Of a stretch of DNA of 64,000 nt, positions 8,572 through 40,446 are shown one piece after another. The stretch covers positions 62,001 to 126,000 of the forward strand of contig NZ_JBBEOG010000003.1 in NCBI RefSeq assembly GCF_037860835.1, in the 5' to 3' direction. Origin of the DNA: Aquipuribacter nitratireducens (lineage in GTDB: Bacteria; Actinomycetota; Actinomycetes; Actinomycetales; JBBAYJ01). The notes beneath the pieces are model-generated. The model worked only from the letters and a program-made list of their open reading frames with translations, did not search any database and was not told the DNA's origin. The translations under genes and the position numbers were made by a program. The stretch's first letter is position 1, and every line of letters starts with the position of its first letter.

Positions 8572-8588
8572 GGGGGCCGCTGCGCACA

Positions 8589-8672
8589 CCTTGCGGGAGA
8601 GTCCGTCGGCACGCGCCGGCGGCGCCGAAGGGGCAACCTCCCCGGAACCTCTCAGGCACCCGGACCGCAGGG
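8589..8672 (+). ncRNA. Glycine riboswitch, single aptamer
   Basis: The conserved core is present in order: GCGGGAGAG (8593-8601), CGCCGAAGGGGCAACC, and CCTCTCAGGCACC. P1 is closed by 8589-8596 (CCTTGCGG) with 8665-8672 (CCGCAGGG), eight pairs including one G-U. Only one aptamer with these cores is found; no second GGGAGAG/CTCTCAGG set follows. The downstream leader to 8761 contains a small GGGAC-CGCGC-GTCCC hairpin (8688-8702) and C/G-rich segments that may form the expression platform. Glycine riboswitches usually activate glycine-cleavage genes, which fits gcvP. Confidence 0.93.
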
Positions 8673-8761
8673 CACAGGCACGCAGGAGGGACCGCGCGTC
8701 CCGACTGTCGGGGGTCCCGCACCCGTCGGGCCGCCCGGCCCGCCCCGCCTGAGGAGCGCGC

Positions 8762-27106: not shown

Positions 27107-31666
<4,560 letters not shown>

Positions 31667-31682
31667 GCGCAGGAGCGCTGCC

Positions 31683-31719
31683 GGCGCGTCCGGGTCCGGA
31701 CCTCGGACCCGGACGCGCC
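31683..31719 (+). terminator. Terminator-like hairpin after gltB
   Basis: A perfect 16-bp stem (GGCGCGTCCGGGTCCG with its complement) and a 5-base loop, 17 bases after the gltB stop. There is no T-run. The strength of the stem and its position between gltB and the pyk promoter support termination. Confidence 0.75.
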
Positions 31720-31738
31720 CGGGTGTGACCGCGGCCAC

Positions 31739-31744
31739 TAGCGT
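31739..31744 (+). promoter_or_regulatory. Leaderless -10 box of pyk
   Basis: TAGCGT ends 7 bases before the ATG at 31752; no Shine-Dalgarno intervenes. It lies directly behind the gltB terminator hairpin. Confidence 0.6.
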
Positions 31745-31751
31745 GGTCCCC

Positions 31752-33194
31752 ATGCGCCGCGCGAAGATCGTCTGCACCCTCGGCCCCGCCGTCGCCGGGG
31801 TCGACCGCATCCGCCAGCTCGTCGAGGCGGGCATGGACGTCGCCCGCATGAACTTCAGTCACGGCGACCACGCCGACCACGAGCAGAACTTCGCCGACGT
31901 GCGCGCCGCCGCCGAGGCCACCGGTCGCAACGTCGCGGTGCTCCTCGACCTCCAGGGCCCGAAGATCCGGCTCGGCCGCTTCGCCGAGGGCGCCGTCGAG
32001 CTCGAGGTGGGCGCGGAGTTCGTGATCACGACCGAGGACGTCGAGGGCGACGTCCACCAGTGCTCGACGACGTACAAGGGACTGCCCGGCGACGTCTCCG
32101 TCGGCGACACGATCCTCATCGACGACGGGCGCCTCGCGCTGCGGGCGACCGGCGTCGACGGCCCGCGCGTCACGACCGAGGTCGTGGTCGGCGGCCGGGT
32201 GTCGAACAACAAGGGCATCAACCTGCCCGGGGTGGCCGTCAGCGTGCCCGCGCTCACCGAGAAGGACATCGAGGACCTGCGGTTCGGGCTCGGGCTGGGT
32301 GTCGACATCGTCGCCCTGTCCTTCGTCCGCCGCGGCAGCGACGTCGACGGCGTCCGGCGGGTCATGGAGGAGGAGGGCGTCCGGCGTCCCGTCATCGCCA
32401 AGGTCGAGAAGCCGCAGGCCGTCGAGCACCTCCGGGAGGTCATCGACGCCTTCGACGGGATCATGGTGGCTCGCGGCGACCTCGGGGTCGAGCTCCCGCT
32501 GTACGAGGTGCCCCTCGTGCAGAAGCGGGCCGTCGAGCTCGCCCGGCGCCAGGCCAAGCCCGTCATCGTCGCCACCCAGATGCTCGAGTCGATGATCTCG
32601 AGCCCGCGCCCGACGCGGGCCGAGGCGAGCGACGTCGCCAACGCGATCCTCGACGGGGCCGACGCCGTCATGCTGTCGGGCGAGACGAGCGTCGGGGAGT
32701 TCCCCTTCGAGGCCGTGCGGACGATGGCGGACATCATCCGCAACACGGAGGAGCACGGGCTCGACCGCATCGCCCCCCTCGGGACGAAGCCGCGCACGAA
32801 GGGCGGGGCCATCACGCGCGCGGCCGCCGAGATCGGTGCCCAGCTCAACGTCCGCTACCTCGCGTGCTTCAGCCAGTCCGGGGACTCCGCGAAGCGGATG
32901 AGCCGGCTGCGCAGCCCCATCCCGCTGCTCGTGTTCACGCCGTCGGCGGAGGCCCGTCGCCAGCTCGCGGTGTCGTGGGGGATCGAGGCCATCGAGACCC
33001 CGATGGTGACCCACACCGACGACATGGTCCGCCAGGTCGACGAGGCGATGCGGAACACCGGGCTCGGTGCCGACGGCGACCTCGTCGTCATCGTGGCCGG
33101 GTCGCCCCCCGGCATCCCGGGCTCGACGAACGCCCTGCGCGTGCACCAGGTCGGTGACGCCGTGGCACAGGTGGCGCCCGCGTACGCGACCTGA
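31752..33194 (+). CDS. pyk: Pyruvate kinase
   Basis: 480 residues. It converts phosphoenolpyruvate and ADP to pyruvate and ATP. Conserved segments include MRRAKIVCTLGPA, MDVARMNFSHG, the catalytic IAKVEKPQAV, GIMVARGDLGVELP and QMLESMISSPRPTRAE. The C-terminal domain ends in GSPPGIPGSTNALRVHQVG. ATG 31752 matches the family N-terminus and the leaderless promoter. It is followed by a convergent tRNA-Leu gene. Confidence 0.97.
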   Translation: MRRAKIVCTLGPAVAGVDRIRQLVEAGMDVARMNFSHGDHADHEQNFADVRAAAEATGRNVAVLLDLQGPKIRLGRFAEGAVELEVGAEFVITTEDVEGDVHQCSTTYKGLPGDVSVGDTILIDDGRLALRATGVDGPRVTTEVVVGGRVSNNKGINLPGVAVSVPALTEKDIEDLRFGLGLGVDIVALSFVRRGSDVDGVRRVMEEEGVRRPVIAKVEKPQAVEHLREVIDAFDGIMVARGDLGVELPLYEVPLVQKRAVELARRQAKPVIVATQMLESMISSPRPTRAEASDVANAILDGADAVMLSGETSVGEFPFEAVRTMADIIRNTEEHGLDRIAPLGTKPRTKGGAITRAAAEIGAQLNVRYLACFSQSGDSAKRMSRLRSPIPLLVFTPSAEARRQLAVSWGIEAIETPMVTHTDDMVRQVDEAMRNTGLGADGDLVVIVAGSPPGIPGSTNALRVHQVGDAVAQVAPAYAT

Positions 33195-33222
33195 GAGCCC
33201 GCGGCCGGGCCCACGTGGCGGC

Positions 33223-33300
33223 TGGTGCCCCGGGTGGGACTCGAACCCACACCAACGACGGGTTTGAGCCGTCGGCCTCTGCCAATTGGGCTACCGGGGC
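33223..33300 (-). tRNA. tRNA-Leu (CAA) with a short, class-I-type variable arm
   Basis: Read on the minus strand, acceptor GCCCCGG (33294-33300) pairs with CCGGGGC (33227-33233), the discriminator is A and CCA is encoded at 33223-33225. The anticodon arm is GACGG-CTCAAAC-CCGTC, giving anticodon CAA with A37. The T arm is GTGGG-TTCGAGT-CCCAC. Only about six bases lie between the anticodon and T stems, whereas leucine tRNAs normally carry a long variable stem. All arms pair well. The leucine identity is therefore read from the anticodon only. Confidence 0.85.
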
Positions 33301-33335
33301 GTGGTCGGGGCGGTAGGACCGCTCCGACCGGCCGC

Positions 33336-33341
33336 TAGGCT
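33336..33341 (+). promoter_or_regulatory. Leaderless -10 box of pdtaR
   Basis: TAGGCT ends 6 bases before the GTG at 33348. It lies 36 bases from the 5' end of the divergent tRNA-Leu gene. Confidence 0.6.
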
Positions 33342-33347
33342 ACCGCC

Positions 33348-34046
33348 GTGGCTGACAGCGACGACGCGACGACGGGCGTGGACGACCCGTTCCTCCCGCC
33401 CACCCGCACCGCCTCCTCCGAGGAGGAGACCGCCGCGCAGTCGGCGGGGCCCGGCACGCGCCGGCGCGTCGTCGTCGCCGAGGACGAGGCCCTCATCCGG
33501 CTCGACCTCGTCGAGATGCTCACCGAGGCCGGCTACGACGTCGTGGGCGAGGCCGGCGACGGCGAGTCCGCCATGCGCCTCGCGGAGGAGCAGCGCCCGG
33601 ACGTCGTCGTCCTCGACATCAAGATGCCGAAGCTCGACGGCCTGTCGGCGGCCGAGCGCATCGCGCAGGCCCGCATCGCCCCCGTCGTGCTCCTCACGGC
33701 CTTCAGCCAGACCGAGCTCGTCGAGCGCGCCCGGGACGCCGGGGCGATGGCGTACGTCGTCAAGCCGTTCACGGCCGCCGACCTGCTGCCGGCCCTCGAG
33801 ATCGCCGTCAGCCGGCACCAGGAGCTCGTGCAGCTGGAGGACGAGGTCGCCGACCTCGCCGACCGCCTCGAGACCCGCAAGCTCGTCGAGCGGGCGAAGG
33901 CGGCGCTGCAGCAGACGTACGGCATGAGCGAGCCCGAGGCGTTCCGCTGGATCCAGAAGACGTCGATGGACCGGCGGCTGTCGATGCGCGAGGTCGCCTC
34001 CGGCGTCCTGGCCGCGGCGGCCAACGCGGGCAAGTCCGGGCGCTGA
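33348..34046 (+). CDS. pdtaR: ANTAR-domain response regulator PdtaR
   Basis: 232 residues. A disordered acidic head (about 1-38) precedes a receiver domain with Glu45/Asp46, phospho-acceptor Asp90 (VVVLDIKMP) and Lys139 (YVVKPF). A coiled linker leads to an ANTAR RNA-binding domain at about 165-220 (LVERAKAALQQTYGMSEPEA, then MDRRLSMREVA). PdtaR (Rv1626) is activated by the orphan kinase PdtaS and binds ANTAR target hairpins to antiterminate transcription. The kinase is not in the window. The neighbours pyk and polA match the mycobacterial order. Confidence 0.93.
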   Translation: MADSDDATTGVDDPFLPPTRTASSEEETAAQSAGPGTRRRVVVAEDEALIRLDLVEMLTEAGYDVVGEAGDGESAMRLAEEQRPDVVVLDIKMPKLDGLSAAERIAQARIAPVVLLTAFSQTELVERARDAGAMAYVVKPFTAADLLPALEIAVSRHQELVQLEDEVADLADRLETRKLVERAKAALQQTYGMSEPEAFRWIQKTSMDRRLSMREVASGVLAAAANAGKSGR

Positions 34047-34128: not shown

Positions 34129-34144
34129 TGTCGCCGCGCCGCAG

Positions 34145-34171
34145 GTCACGAACCTGCAACGCCTGGGTAAC
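34145..34171 (+). promoter_or_regulatory. GlnR-box-like operator upstream of livJ
   Basis: GTCAC-N6-GCAAC-N6-GTAAC, exactly spaced, fits the actinobacterial nitrogen-regulator GlnR pattern gTnAc-n6-GaAAc repeated (AC-n9-AC-n9-AC). A fourth half-site position (GCCGC at 34178-34182) is degenerate. The array is centred about 65 bases upstream of the predicted livJ start, a normal position for activation. Binding is inferred. Confidence 0.55.
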
Positions 34172-34187: not shown

Positions 34188-34216
34188 CTGACGCCGACCG
34201 ATCGTTCGACTACGTT
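34188..34216 (+). promoter_or_regulatory. Promoter of livJ
   Basis: CTGACG (34188-34193), a 17-base spacer and TACGTT (34211-34216). The start near 34223 leaves a leader of about 50 bases with AAGGAG at 34259-34264. Confidence 0.6.
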
Positions 34217-34272
34217 TCGTCGTCAGCCGCAGCGTCCGCTGCGGACGTCCTTTGCCTGAAGGAGCACACCAC

Positions 34273-35604
34273 ATGACCCGACGCATGCGTGGATGGCAGT
34301 CCGTCGCCGTCCTCGGTATCGCCGGTCTCACGCTCGCCGCCTGTGGCGGCGGCGACGCCGAGCCCGAGGACACCGCTGCAGCCGGTGGCGACGACACCGC
34401 TGCCGCGACCGAGGAGCCGATGGAGGAGCCCACGGACGGCGGCGAGACCGCTGCCGGCGGGGGCGGCGGCGACGGCACGCTGACCATCGGCACCCTCCTG
34501 CCGGAGACCGGCAGCCTCGCGTTCCTCGGCCCGCCCGAGTTCGCCGGCGTCGACCTCGCGGTCCAGGAGATCAACGAGGCCGGCGGTGTGCTCGACAACG
34601 ACGTCGTCAAGATCGACGGCGACTCGGGTGACACCACCACCGACATCGCGACCCAGACCGTCACCCGCCTCCTCGGCGAGGGCGTCGACGCGATCATCGG
34701 TGCGGCCTCGTCCGGTGTCTCGTTCACCGTCATCGACCAGATCACCGGTGCGGGCGTCGTCCACTTCTCGCCCGCCAACACGAGCCCCGACTTCACCGAC
34801 TACGACGACAACGGGCTGTACTTCCGTACCGCGCCGTCCGACGTACTCCAGGGCCGCGTGCTCGGTGACCTGCTCGTGCAGGACGGCTGCCTCGACGCCG
34901 CCGCGATCGTCCTCGACGACCCGTACGGCACGGGCCTCATCGAGAACGTCCAGGCGTCCCTCGAGGCCGGTGGCGGTTCGCTCGTCACCGACCCGATCCT
35001 CTACCCGGAGGGCACCGACAACTTCTCCGCCCAGGTGACCCAGGTCGCCGACGCGGGCGCGGAGTGCGTCGTCCTCATCGGCTTCGCCGAGACCGCCCAG
35101 ATCATCACCGAGATGGTCGCCCAGGGCCTCAGCCCCGCCGACGTCCCGACGTACTTCGTCGACGGCAACCTCTCCAACTACGGCGAGGACCTGCCGGAGG
35201 GCACCCTCGAGGGCAACAAGGGCACCCTGCCGGGCGCCGAGGCCCCCGAGGAGTTCCAGAACCGTCTCCTCGAGGTCGACCCCGACCTCAACGACTTCTC
35301 CTACGCGGCGGAGTCGTACGACGCGGCCATCGTCATCGCCCTCGCGGCCGTCGCCGCGGGCAGCGACGACGGTGTCGCCATCGGCGCCGAGATCCCGGGC
35401 GTCACGCGTGAGGGCACGGAGTGCACGGACTTCGCCTCGTGCAAGGAGCTCCTCGACTCCGGTGAGGACATCGACTACAACGGCGTCTCCGGCCCCATCG
35501 AGCTGAGCGACCAGGGTGACCCCACCCAGGCGACGATCGGCATCTTCGAGTACGGCCCCGACAACAACTACACCCGCGTCGACAGCCTCTCGGGCACGAT
35601 CTGA
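34273..35604 (+). CDS. livJ: Branched-chain amino-acid ABC transporter, substrate-binding lipoprotein
   Basis: 443 residues. A lipoprotein signal with lipobox LAAC (Cys24) is followed by an acidic Ala/Glu-rich linker and a type-I periplasmic binding domain (TIGTLLPETGSLAFLGPPE, then LAVQEINEAGGV). It delivers leucine/isoleucine/valine or related amino acids to the LivHMGF complex, whose genes are convergent on the other strand. ATG 34273 is 8 bases after AAGGAG. Codon use is like its neighbours. The lipobox shows that the cell must make prolipoprotein diacylglyceryl transferase even though lgt is missing from its common place after trpA. Confidence 0.93.
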   Translation: MTRRMRGWQSVAVLGIAGLTLAACGGGDAEPEDTAAAGGDDTAAATEEPMEEPTDGGETAAGGGGGDGTLTIGTLLPETGSLAFLGPPEFAGVDLAVQEINEAGGVLDNDVVKIDGDSGDTTTDIATQTVTRLLGEGVDAIIGAASSGVSFTVIDQITGAGVVHFSPANTSPDFTDYDDNGLYFRTAPSDVLQGRVLGDLLVQDGCLDAAAIVLDDPYGTGLIENVQASLEAGGGSLVTDPILYPEGTDNFSAQVTQVADAGAECVVLIGFAETAQIITEMVAQGLSPADVPTYFVDGNLSNYGEDLPEGTLEGNKGTLPGAEAPEEFQNRLLEVDPDLNDFSYAAESYDAAIVIALAAVAAGSDDGVAIGAEIPGVTREGTECTDFASCKELLDSGEDIDYNGVSGPIELSDQGDPTQATIGIFEYGPDNNYTRVDSLSGTI

Positions 35605-36115: not shown

Positions 36116-36907
36116 TCAGTCGACCTTGGCGAGCGTCCCGAGGTAGAGCTCGATGACCTTGGGGTCGTTGGCGAGGCCCTTGCCGGTGCCGGTGTAGGCG
36201 TTGCGGCCCTGGTCGAGGACGTACCCGCGGTGGCAGATCTGGAGGCACCGGCGGGCGTTCTGCTCGACCATGACGACCGAGACGCCCGTCTTGTTGATCT
36301 CGCGGGTCCGGAGGAACACCTCGTCCTGCTTGGCGGGGGAGAGCCCGGCCGACGGCTCGTCGAGGAGCAGGACGCTCGGGTCCATCATGAGCGCCCGACC
36401 CATCGCGACCATCTGCCGCTCCCCGCCGGACAGCGAGCCCGCCCGCTGGGCCCGCCGCTCGCCGAGAGTGGGGAAGAGGTCGACGACCACCTCGAAGCGG
36501 TCCTTGAACTTCTTCGGGTCCTGGTAGCAGCCCATCAGCATGTTCTCCTCGATCGTGAGGGAGGGGAACACGTTGTTGGTCTGCGGCACGAAGCCGACGC
36601 CCTTCGACACCAGCTGGTTGGCCTTGAGCCCGGTGATGTCCTCCCCGCGCAGCGTGATCGAGCCGGAGCGCACCTTCACGAGGCCGAACATCGCCTTGAG
36701 CAGCGTCGACTTGCCGGCCCCGTTGGGGCCGATGATGCCGACGAGCTCGCCGGGGGCGACGTACAGGTCCGTGGAGTTGAGGATGTTGACGCCGGGCAGG
36801 TAGCCCGCGACGAGCTCGTCGACGCGGATGAGCGCGTCCTGCGCGCCGGCCAGGTGGTCGTCGCGGCTCGTGACCGTCGACCCGCTCGTGCTCGTGGTCT
36901 CGCTCAT
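36116..36907 (-). CDS. livF: Branched-chain amino-acid ABC transporter ATPase LivF
   Basis: 263 residues. An N-terminal Ser/Thr-rich stretch of about 25 residues precedes the ATPase. Walker A is GPNGAGKST (60-68), the signature is LSGGERQ, and Walker B is LLLDEPSAGLSP. The LivF-type end (NDPKVIELYLG) is present. It energises uptake through LivH/LivM with LivG. The ATG overlaps the livG stop (ATGA), and the gene is last in the livHMGF operon. Confidence 0.95.
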   Translation of the reverse strand: MSETTSTSGSTVTSRDDHLAGAQDALIRVDELVAGYLPGVNILNSTDLYVAPGELVGIIGPNGAGKSTLLKAMFGLVKVRSGSITLRGEDITGLKANQLVSKGVGFVPQTNNVFPSLTIEENMLMGCYQDPKKFKDRFEVVVDLFPTLGERRAQRAGSLSGGERQMVAMGRALMMDPSVLLLDEPSAGLSPAKQDEVFLRTREINKTGVSVVMVEQNARRCLQICHRGYVLDQGRNAYTGTGKGLANDPKVIELYLGTLAKVD

Positions 36908-37929
36908 GCTCGCGGGTCCTCCGTCCGCGTGGTGCCGGCCGTGCCCGGGTGGTCCTCGGGACGGTCGGTGTGCTGGTAGTGGACGCCGCCGGGCTGCTCG
37001 AGCGGGTCGTCCTCGCCGATCGACTCGTCGTGGTGCCCGCCGAGGTAGGCGTCGATGACGGCCGGGTCGGCCATGACGGCGTCCGGCGGGCCCTCGGAGA
37101 CGATCTGGCCCTGGGCCATGACGATGACCCAGTCGGAGATGTCGCGGACCATGTCCATGTCGTGCTCGACGAAGAGCACCGTCATGCCCTGCTCGCGCAG
37201 GTCCTTGACGTGACCGAGCAGCGACTGGGTGAGTGCCGGGTTCACGCCCGCCATCGGCTCGTCGAGCATGACCATCGTCGGGTCGCTCATGAGCGCCCGC
37301 GCCATCTCGAGCAGCTTGCGCTGGCCCCCGGAGAGGGAGCCGGCGAAGTCCTCCTGCTTGCGGTCGAGCTTGAAGCGCGCGAGCAGCTCCTGCGCCCGCG
37401 TGCTGATCTCGGCCTCCTGCGAGCGCCACAGGAACGGCAGGAGGGCCGGCAGCAGCCGCTCCCCCCGCTGGTCCTGCGCACCGAGACGCATGTTCTCCAG
37501 GACCGTCAGCCGCGACAGCGCCTTCGTCAGCTGGAACGTGCGGACCATGCCCTTGCGGGCGACCTTGTGGGCGGCGAGCTTCGAGACGGGGTCGCCGTCG
37601 AAGGTCCACGCGCCCTCGTCGGGCGTGTCGAAGCCCGTGAGGAGGTTGAACAGCGTCGTCTTCCCGGCCCCGTTGGGGCCGATGAGCGCGGTGATGGCGT
37701 TGCGCTGGATCTCGACGTGCTCGACGTCGACGGCGGTGAGCCCGCCGAAGCGGCGCACGACGTTGTCGGCGACGAGGATCGGGTCCGGCTTCTTCGCGCC
37801 TGGCACGCGCGGGACGTCGGCGAGCGCGGCCGTGGCCCGGTCGCGGTACGTCTGCCCGACGGTGGCCGTGGCGGCACCGCCGCCCGCGGGCTCGCGGGCC
37901 TCCGGGTTGTCGGTGTGCTCAGCGTGCAT
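36904..37929 (-). CDS. livG: Branched-chain amino-acid ABC transporter ATPase LivG
   Basis: 341 residues, longer than the usual ~255 because of a hydrophilic N-terminal extension of about 45 residues and a His/Asp/Pro-rich tail of about 45. The ATPase core has GPNGAGKTT, the LivG-type ...VRTFQLTKALSRLTVLENM, LSGGQRK and MLDEPMAGVNP. Both extensions are low in hydrophobic residues and probably disordered. It overlaps livM by 11 bases and livF by 4. Confidence 0.94.
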   Translation of the reverse strand: MHAEHTDNPEAREPAGGGAATATVGQTYRDRATAALADVPRVPGAKKPDPILVADNVVRRFGGLTAVDVEHVEIQRNAITALIGPNGAGKTTLFNLLTGFDTPDEGAWTFDGDPVSKLAAHKVARKGMVRTFQLTKALSRLTVLENMRLGAQDQRGERLLPALLPFLWRSQEAEISTRAQELLARFKLDRKQEDFAGSLSGGQRKLLEMARALMSDPTMVMLDEPMAGVNPALTQSLLGHVKDLREQGMTVLFVEHDMDMVRDISDWVIVMAQGQIVSEGPPDAVMADPAVIDAYLGGHHDESIGEDDPLEQPGGVHYQHTDRPEDHPGTAGTTRTEDPRA

Positions 37930-38911
37930 CGAGAACCAGCTCCCTCCGGTCGCCGAGGATGCCCTGTGGTCGGAAGGCCATGAGGAGCATCAGGGCGAGC
38001 CCCACCAGGATGAACCGCACCTGGCCGACCTGGACACCGTCCATGAGCCACGTGGGGATGATCTCCGCCGACACCGCCCCGCGGAGGATGGTGTCGGTGA
38101 GCGACAGCGTCACCCACAGGATGACGGCGCCGAGGACCGGGCCCCAGATCCGCGCCGCGCCGCCGAGCAGGAGCGCGGTGTAGGCGAGGAACGTCAGCTG
38201 GGTCGCGTAGTTGTCCGGCTGCACGGACCCGCGCGACAGGCTGAGCACGAACCCGGCGAAGGCTCCGATGACACCGCCCAGGACGAGGGCCTGCATCTTG
38301 TACGCGAAGATGTTCTTGCCGAGGCTGCGGACGGCGTCCTCGTCCTCGCGGATGCCCTTGAGCACGCGGCCCCACGGGCTGCGCACGAGCAGCGTGACGA
38401 CGACGAGCGACAGCGCGATGAGGAACAGCGCGAACAGCCGGATCCACAGCCCCCGCTCGCTGTACGTCCACGGGCCGAAGCCGTACGTGTCCGGCGGGAA
38501 CGGGTTGAGCGCGTAGAACTCGCGCGCCATGCCGTTGATGCCGTTCGAGCCGCCCGTGATCTCGTCGGCGGTGCTCGACCGCGCGACGAAGCGGAAGATC
38601 TCGGCCGTCGCGATGGTCGCGATGGCGAGGTAGTCCGCGCGCAGGCGCAGCGTCGGGATGCCGAGGAGCAGCGCGAGGACGGTGGCCGCGCCGATGCCGA
38701 CGAGGAAACCGACCCACAGGGGGGCGTCGAGGTACGTCACCGAGATGCCGACGCCGTAGGCGCCCATCGCGACGAACGCGGCCTGACCGAAGTTCAGCAG
38801 CCCCGTGTACCCGAAGTGCATGTTGAGGCCGATCGCGGCGAGCACGAACACGAGCGTGTCGATGCCGAGGATGTTGCCGAGGCCCTGGTCGATGATGCTG
38901 GCGAAGTCCAT
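37919..38911 (-). CDS. livM: Branched-chain amino-acid ABC transporter permease LivM
   Basis: 330 residues with eight or more hydrophobic helices. The LivM features are GLNMHFGYTGLLNFGQAAF near the N-terminus, the cytoplasmic coupling loop TLLVRSPWGRVLKGIREDEDA, and LGGAARIWGPVLGAV. It forms the membrane channel with LivH. The start follows livH by 12 bases with a GAGGAGACGACG-type ribosome site. Confidence 0.94.
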   Translation of the reverse strand: MDFASIIDQGLGNILGIDTLVFVLAAIGLNMHFGYTGLLNFGQAAFVAMGAYGVGISVTYLDAPLWVGFLVGIGAATVLALLLGIPTLRLRADYLAIATIATAEIFRFVARSSTADEITGGSNGINGMAREFYALNPFPPDTYGFGPWTYSERGLWIRLFALFLIALSLVVVTLLVRSPWGRVLKGIREDEDAVRSLGKNIFAYKMQALVLGGVIGAFAGFVLSLSRGSVQPDNYATQLTFLAYTALLLGGAARIWGPVLGAVILWVTLSLTDTILRGAVSAEIIPTWLMDGVQVGQVRFILVGLALMLLMAFRPQGILGDRRELVLDAR

Positions 38912-38923
38912 GTCGTCGTCTCC

Positions 38924-40282
38924 TCAGCCGACCCGCTCGCGACGCCCGAGCAGCCCCGAGGGCTTGACGAGCAGGATGATGATGAGGACGGCGAGGGCCC
39001 CGACGTTCTTCAGCTCCGGCGGGATCACGAGGGTGCTCACCTCGATGAGCAGGCCCACGACGACCGCGCCGAGCATCGCGCCGAACGCCGTCCCGAGGCC
39101 GCCGAGGACGACGGCGGCGAAGATCAGCAGCAGGATCTGGAAGCCGAGCTGGAAGTCCATGCCCTGCGTGAGGCCGAAGAAGATGCCGGACAGGGCGGCC
39201 AACGACGTCCCGACGATCCACACGACGCGGATGACGTTGTCGACGTCGATGCCGCTCGCAGCCGCGAGCGCCGGGTTGTCGCTGACAGCGCGCGTCGCCT
39301 TGCCGATGCGCGTGTAGAGCAACGCGAGCGCGAACGCGATGAGGACGACGACGGAGATCCCCATGACGATGAGGTGCGCGGGCGGGATCCGGATCGAGCC
39401 GATCTCGATCGGCCCCTGCGCGGTGAAGTCCCGGTAGAAGACCGTCTGCCCGCCGAAGAGGTAGAGGAAGCCGTAGCGCATGAAGAAGCTGAGGCCGATC
39501 GAGAAGATCATCATCGCGATGAGCCCGATCTGCTTGCGCCGCAGCTGCCGCCAGATCGCGGTGTCCTGGAACCAGCCGAACGCCGCCGACAGCACGAGCA
39601 CGATGGGGATCGCGAGGAGCAGCGGGACCCCGCCGATGACGTGCACGGCGTACGTCACGAGCGCGCCGAACGTCACGAGCTCGCCGTGGGCGAAGTTCGT
39701 GAGGCCCGTCGTGCCGAAGACGAGCGACAGCCCGATCGCGGCGAGCGCGAGGATGAGGCCGAACCGCAGGCCCGACGCGACGAGCTGCGGCGTGCGCTGC
39801 CACGGGATGTCGGCGAAGAACCCGGTCGCGGCCGCGACGCCTCCGTCGCCCTCGCCGGCCCCGGCGACGAGCCGGAAGGCGACCGTCCGCGGCGTGCCGG
39901 GGTCGACGCGGGTCGTGAAGGGGTTCTGCTCGACGCCGAGGTCCTCGCCCTCGAAGGCGGACAGGTCGAGCTCGATCTCGTACTCGCCGGGGTCCGGGAC
40001 CGGGATGCTCGCGAGGCCGCCGTCGTCGGTCTCCGCCTCGCCGACGACCTCCCCGTCCTGACGGACGGTGACGGGGACGCCAGGAACGTCCTCGCGGGTC
40101 TCGTCGATGCGGACGCGGACGTTGATGAGCTCGCCCTCGCCTCCCTCGTCGGTGCCGCCGGCGAGCACCGCCGCGGTCGGTGGTCCGGCGGTCGCGGGCG
40201 GTCCCGCCGCGTGAGCGGCGGCCGCCGGCCCGGCGGCGGTCATGGCCAGGATCAACCCGGCGAGCGCGAGGAGTCGGCGCAC
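38924..40282 (-). CDS. livH: LivH permease fused to an N-terminal secreted beta-sandwich domain
   Basis: 452 residues, about 160 longer than ordinary LivH. The start is GTG 40282 with GGAGG 8 bases upstream. Residues 1-27 look like a signal peptide (MRRLLALAGLILAMTAAGPA). Residues about 52-140 form a repeat-free Ig/carboxypeptidase-regulatory-like domain (VPVTVRQDGEVVGEAETDDG, then IPVPDPGEYEIELDLSAFEG). The permease begins near 167 and has the LivH hallmarks GLSLVFGTTGLTNFAHGELV and NPALAAASGIDV. The extra domain would face outside the membrane and might contact LivJ or the wall. It is first in the livHMGF operon. Confidence 0.9.
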   Translation of the reverse strand: MRRLLALAGLILAMTAAGPAAAAHAAGPPATAGPPTAAVLAGGTDEGGEGELINVRVRIDETREDVPGVPVTVRQDGEVVGEAETDDGGLASIPVPDPGEYEIELDLSAFEGEDLGVEQNPFTTRVDPGTPRTVAFRLVAGAGEGDGGVAAATGFFADIPWQRTPQLVASGLRFGLILALAAIGLSLVFGTTGLTNFAHGELVTFGALVTYAVHVIGGVPLLLAIPIVLVLSAAFGWFQDTAIWRQLRRKQIGLIAMMIFSIGLSFFMRYGFLYLFGGQTVFYRDFTAQGPIEIGSIRIPPAHLIVMGISVVVLIAFALALLYTRIGKATRAVSDNPALAAASGIDVDNVIRVVWIVGTSLAALSGIFFGLTQGMDFQLGFQILLLIFAAVVLGGLGTAFGAMLGAVVVGLLIEVSTLVIPPELKNVGALAVLIIILLVKPSGLLGRRERVG

Positions 40283-40358: not shown

Positions 40359-40364
40359 ACTCTA
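40359..40364 (-). promoter_or_regulatory. -10 box of the livHMGF operon
   Basis: TAGAGT on the minus strand, giving a start near 40352 and a leader of about 70 bases with a good Shine-Dalgarno. No clear -35. Confidence 0.5.
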
Positions 40365-40402: not shown

Positions 40403-40422
40403 ACGTCACCGGAAAGTGACGT
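40403..40422. promoter_or_regulatory. GlnR-like palindrome upstream of livHMGF
   Basis: ACGTCAC-CGGAAA-GTGACGT, a perfect 7-bp inverted repeat. It reads GTCAC-N6-GTGAC on both strands, satisfying the AC-n9-AC core of GlnR sites. It lies about 50-70 bases upstream of the predicted livH start. It is also 25 bases beyond the DUF554 stop, so a terminator role is possible. Confidence 0.45.
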
Positions 40423-40446
40423 GCGCGGAACACTCGACGCGTCCGG

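Follow-up and report, generated by a model that had tools for sequence, protein, structure and literature searches.

A GlnR-like but variant operator for an OmpR-type regulator upstream of livJ in an actinomycete clade

The DNA upstream of livJ carries three tandem half-sites, GTCAC-gaacct-GCAAC-gcctgg-GTAAC, and their identification as an operator for an OmpR-type response regulator is well supported by comparison of genomes. A regulator of the OmpR/PhoB family would bind two or three of these half-sites, which form 11-bp repeats, and would activate livJ from about −52 to −78. The most likely occupant and activator is, on balance, GlnR, which would act on a variant box when nitrogen is limiting.

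The operator and the livJ promoter

Coordinates refer to the window, the whole stretch of 64,000 nucleotides that was analysed. The features around the site are:

33348–34046, + strand: upstream gene, a response regulator with an ANTAR output domain (Pfam PF00072 and PF03861), PdtaR-like and not of the DNA-binding type
34141–34171, + strand: genus-wide conserved block GCAGGTCACGAACCTGCAACGCCTnGGTAA, first spacer included, from an alignment of three congeners (loci L051–L053)
34145–34171, + strand: operator with half-sites GTCAC (34145–34149), GCAAC (34156–34160) and GTAAC (34167–34171), period 11 bp, near-invariant in three congeners
34188–34193, + strand: putative −35 element CTGACG, read from the sequence; TGACGCCGACC is conserved within the genus
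34211–34216, + strand: putative −10 element TACGTT, 17 nt after the −35 and 39 nt after the operator, conserved within the genus and supported by distance counts
34260–34264, + strand: Shine-Dalgarno sequence AGGAG of livJ, conserved within the genus
34273–35604, + strand: livJ-type periplasmic binding protein, a lipoprotein (Pfam PF13458, 134 bits)

The half-site letters and positions given in a preliminary description were confirmed by reading the sequence, and the spacing is, as claimed there, right for actinobacterial GlnR boxes: the full site reads AC-n9-AC-n9-AC and so contains AC-n9-AC twice. The distance to the livJ start, put at about 65 bases, had to be corrected to 101 nt, measured to the ATG at 34273 that follows the Shine-Dalgarno sequence. 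Between the site and livJ lies the predicted promoter, CTGACG-N17-TACGTT (34188–34216), whose −10 begins 39 nt past the last half-site. Tandem half-sites, an 11-bp period and phasing to the promoter, as in OmpR/PhoB-type operators, are all found.

Two further readings of this region were rejected. A fold z-score of −1.0 and the lack of an Rfam match told against an RNA element in the leader of livJ. The inverted repeat GCAGGT-n5-ACCTGC within the site, considered as a separate palindromic operator, is conserved in the genus only and absent from other families.

Conservation of the element

Comparison of the three congeneric species shows diverged DNA upstream of the site and an almost invariant block, after which the −35, −10 and Shine-Dalgarno sequences are kept. 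Most of the order's other families also have GTnAC-type pairs ahead of livJ, and AC-n9-AC/T was found there in f1 (which includes the window genus), f2, f6, f8, f9, f10, f16, f17 and f19. The box takes the form GTCACGAnnnnrCAACrA in f2, f8, f17 and partly f16, GTCACrnAATCGTGAy in f10, GTTAynnGGnTGTrAC in f6 and f19, and GACACATnnnCGTCAC in f9. The livJ upstream boxes beat dinucleotide shuffles at p<0.05 in 22 of the 30 loci; combined p-values were given no weight because the loci are related.

A near-invariant site amid diverged flanks, together with GTnAC pairs across families, points to a real operator read by an OmpR-type regulator as 11-bp repeats. The preliminary description had named loss of the site upstream of livJ in relatives as a finding that would count against it; when this was tested, the site proved to be conserved in congeners and in other families.

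Matrix scores and chance expectation

The scoring matrix, 16 nt long, was derived solely from sequences upstream of glnA and amtB (30 loci each, 60 boxes). It was seeded with the published consensus, then refined, and converged on GTMAC-n6-GWAAC. In the window genome the glnA box, GTCACgtgcccGAAAC, scores 22.3 bits, the amtB box, GTCACgtgcctGTAAC, 21.0 bits and the livJ site 11.4 bits. The suggested check, whether the livJ site scores like the glnA and amtB boxes, thus came out negative. About 1.8 two-half-site matches as good as livJ are expected per random 64 kb, so the livJ score alone proves nothing, and the site is counted as real because it is conserved. This expectation is what speaks for a chance match with no regulatory role; the 30-base block almost unchanged in three congeners amid diverged DNA, and the conservation of the element in other families at a constant position and phase, bring that reading close to refutation and make it very improbable.

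None of 30 simulated windows contained two scores of that height in tandem at an 11-nt distance, and the three-half-site pattern has a single occurrence in the 64-kb window. Suggestively, two upstream regions, those of livH and livJ, hold the two highest matrix scores among about 128,000 window positions; the congeners do not retain the livH match, which lies at 40416. The genome was examined by pattern searches and in selected stretches. GTNAC-n6-GNAAC-n6-GNNAC has six occurrences in the whole genome, glnA being one of them, versus none for the backwards pattern.

GlnR and the GlnR consensus

The absence of glnR from the genome had also been named as a finding that would count against the original proposal, and here too the outcome was favourable: a GlnR orthologue is encoded at G000:C8:108204-108872. 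The genome has 15 OmpR-type winged-helix matches, and the protein from this locus aligns over its full length with PDB entries 8hig and 8hih (E ~1e-80), which we take to be actinobacterial GlnR structures. It also matches 4o1h, an entry named GlnR (E 9e-24). Ignoring kinship, a GlnR match is present in 83 of 99 genomes of the order (absent from 16) and in all 32 genomes with this livJ.

The livJ site resembles actinomycete GlnR boxes (gTnAc-n6-GaAAc; AC-n9-AC) in half-site length, 11-bp period, core, the uptake gene downstream and the presence of glnR. It differs from them in its right half-site, which is GCAAC and not the GaAAC or GTAAC of glnA and amtB, in an ACGA extension, in lying 39 or 50 nt rather than 32 or 10 nt from the −10, and in a score half that of glnA. 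The fit to the GlnR consensus claimed at the outset therefore stands for the AC-n9-AC core and falls short in the GCAAC half-site, the matrix score and the clade's −10 distance. Work on M. smegmatis shows that GlnR depends on AC-n9-AC, that the b-site can read Gc/aAAC and that importers of amino acids and urea are driven by GlnR (PMC3662644, PMC10704036); C is permitted in the b-site by the mycobacterial consensus (PMC10704036).

Those GlnR-controlled importers (MSMEG2978-2982 and amino-acid permeases) offer a parallel, a nitrogen regulator ahead of importers of the Liv/Urt superfamily, in which GlnR at livJ is a candidate only. MSMEG2978-2982 is described as serving urea uptake (PMC3662644), whereas the window genes, livH excepted, resemble Liv models instead. 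A link between GlnR and livJ in actinomycetes was not found in the searchable literature.

Distance to the −10 element

The distance from the end of the box to TAnnnT was measured at loci selected, in the case of livJ, without geometry as a criterion. Among 30 genomes, the glnA distance is 32 nt in 27 and 10 nt in three. The livJ box in f6, f9, f10 and f19 lies 32–33 or 10 nt from TAnnnT, as at glnA; in f1, f2, f8, f16 and f17 the distance is 39–40 or 48–50 nt, two values that differ by about one helical turn. These counts imply that the livJ operator keeps phase with its promoter in all of these families and that the clade of f1, f2, f8, f16 and f17 uses another register; the glnA spacing is not found in the window clade. 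The amtB loci (L178–L207) were unusable for this comparison because 29 of their 30 genomes have no TAnnnT in the 100 nt adjoining the GlnR box. It seems that amtB uses another kind of promoter, unlike glnA with its fixed 32 or 10 nt. Whichever regulator binds, the −10 distance offers a simple, testable way to distinguish such operators.

GlnR is the leading candidate because the livJ box of the sister families has the geometry of glnA, glnR is present and the shared genes import organic nitrogen; the AC-n9-AC core, the tolerance of C in the mycobacterial consensus (PMC10704036) and the role of GlnR in driving importers (PMC3662644) add to this. We infer GlnR binding, activation rather than repression, and a nitrogen signal, and the livJ site would work like a GlnR box, being GlnR-like but variant in the window clade. 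The original claim of GlnR regulation thus holds firmly as regards OmpR-type control and as a likelihood as regards GlnR itself. The half-site, score and register of bona fide boxes in the same genomes were tested and are not those of livJ, which is thus a probable rather than a confirmed member of the GlnR regulon.

Recurrence at other importer operons

A genome search with the livJ form, AGGTCACGAnnnnGCAACG, gave four further sites at one mismatch, against about 0.25 expected from base composition (our own estimate), and 17 matches at up to two mismatches, against five for a reversed control. Two of the one-mismatch sites precede a PnrA/BMP-type (nucleoside) ABC operon and a glutamate-type ABC operon adjoining recA/recX, both exactly 39 nt before TAnGTT. 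The remaining near matches were not counted, being mostly inside genes or far from a −10. When half-site pairs 38–40 nt before TAnnnT were sought, four were found in the window genome (both ABC operons, livH and one other) and none with the reversed pattern, and the same two ABC operons were recovered in both other congeners.

The letters of this variant class can be set against those of the 60 glnA and amtB boxes, in a comparison that overstates the difference, because the 18 variant sites were chosen partly for their likeness to livJ and several come from close relatives: C at position 13 (14 of 18 versus 0 of 60), GA after the first half-site (13 of 18 versus 3 of 60) and GA after the second (9 of 18 versus 1 of 60). 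The ACGA extension is frequent in the clade's variant element, unlike in GlnR boxes.

These observations bear on a second reading, less probable but a serious rival, in which another OmpR-family regulator (MtrA, a PhoP/RegX3-like protein or some other) reads GTCACGAnnnnGCAACGA and switches on ABC importers of amino acids and nucleosides, with GlnR binding elsewhere. A consensus and −10 phasing distinct from those of the glnA boxes in the same genomes, and the variant lying 39 nt before TAnGTT at the PnrA/BMP-type and glutamate-type operons of all three congeners, with none for the reversed pattern, fit such a regulator, and mtrA is present in the genome (NF040689, 382 bits). Published sites are similar: the repeats bound by MtrA, GtnAcC-n5-GTnAcn, have an 11-bp period and overlap GlnR boxes (PMC5650626, PMC13189361, PMC10704036), and AfsQ1 recognises GTnAC-n6-GTnAC (PMC6988585). 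In Streptomyces, gluABCD has an OmpR-type regulator of its own, GluR (PMC9739842). MtrA sites share GTnAC with the livJ element; their C after the half-site is absent after the first two half-sites at livJ, and published MtrA targets are mostly cell-wall, development and metabolism genes. Against this reading, GCAACGA is absent from the published MtrA and PhoP consensus sequences compared, and the livJ box has the exact glnA geometry in four sister families, so a change of regulator is needed. It would then be tentatively supposed that, in the window clade, the livJ, glutamate-type and PnrA/nucleoside-type ABC operons, and perhaps livH, form a small non-GlnR OmpR-type regulon with GTCACGAnnnnGCAACGA centred near −60 or −71, while livJ in the sister families stays under GlnR, so that a conserved importer gene would have been handed from one regulator to another.

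A third reading, which overlaps with GlnR as occupant and is rather unlikely, has GlnR and a second regulator such as PhoP or MtrA competing for the element and so joining nitrogen with phosphate or envelope signals. GGTCAC, the left half, agrees with the PHO direct-repeat unit no less well than with GlnR (the pstS box of this genome is GTTCACCGAGGGTTCACC), and cross-regulation at Streptomyces amtB and glnA has been published (PMC10704036, PMC6988585). PHO boxes (GTTCACC repeats) are likewise 11-bp direct repeats, but the second and third half-sites at livJ are unlike GTTCACC.

If GlnR, the preferred candidate, is the occupant, import of branched-chain amino acids, glutamate and nucleosides would join the nitrogen regulon of an actinomycete order; if another regulator binds, the locus would show an importer moving between related regulators with a common 11-bp grammar.

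In one congener (G018, L228 about 1501), GTGAC-n6-GTGAC lies 39 nt before TACGCT, ahead of an OmpR-type response regulator gene. The orthologue in the window genome retains one GTGAC and CTACGCT.

The liv genes and their neighbourhood

The other liv genes lie on the opposite strand, convergent with livJ:

36116–36910, − strand: livF ATPase, start approximate; best model LivF
36904–37929, − strand: livG ATPase; best model LivG
37919–38911, − strand: livM permease (Pfam PF02653); best model LivM
38924–40282, − strand: livH permease (Pfam PF02653), GTG start predicted from a signal-like N terminus
40359–40364, − strand: putative livH −10 element TAGAGT, 40 nt from the candidate operator, from the sequence and a distance search
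40405–40431, − strand: second candidate operator, upstream of livH, from a pattern search; GTCAC-tttccg-GTGAC on the livH strand (40405–40420)

The outer GGAAC of the livH candidate (40427–40431 on the + strand) is not kept in the genus, and the livH boxes carry little weight because their conservation is only loose.

The livJ product gave a weak match to the LivJ-type model (73 bits, below the cutoff of 477). A urea (Urt) transporter was rejected, as UrtA models gave 19–26 bits against cutoffs near 493, and the window genes are closer to Liv than to Urt models, with the exception of livH, which scores slightly higher against UrtB. The substrate of this livJ-type importer is accordingly a prediction from these models.

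Ahead of the liv genes gltB, pyruvate kinase and the ANTAR regulator stand in a row (27107–34046); none of the 12 best matrix scores of the window falls just upstream of gltB. A glycine riboswitch aptamer was found at 8584–8677 (Rfam RF00504, 62.7 bits).

Other boxes in the genome

Boxes of the GlnR type were seen at three further places. The three canonical half-sites GTCAC-GTAAC-GTAAC (17.3 and 18.8 bits) precede, by about 80 nt, the gene of a secreted S8 subtilase (G000:C1:383409-383435; L023:4410-4436), which is likely to be a GlnR-controlled extracellular protease. Another box (19.8 bits) stands between a LacI-type regulator and a sugar-type ABC binding protein (G000:C7:21299-21325; L027:4800-4826); in other systems GlnR is known to control ABC transporters for carbohydrates. 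The third, a strong one (21.2 bits), is upstream of a WhiB-family gene (G000:C6:10489-10515; L115:1501-1527), and in M. smegmatis a WhiB gene lies under a GlnR ChIP peak (PMC3662644). A PHO-box-like repeat, GGTCACGAGTGTTCACC, was also observed between a secreted glycerophosphodiester-phosphodiesterase-like gene and a FecCD-type permease gene (G000:C4:316555-316573; L217 about 1501).
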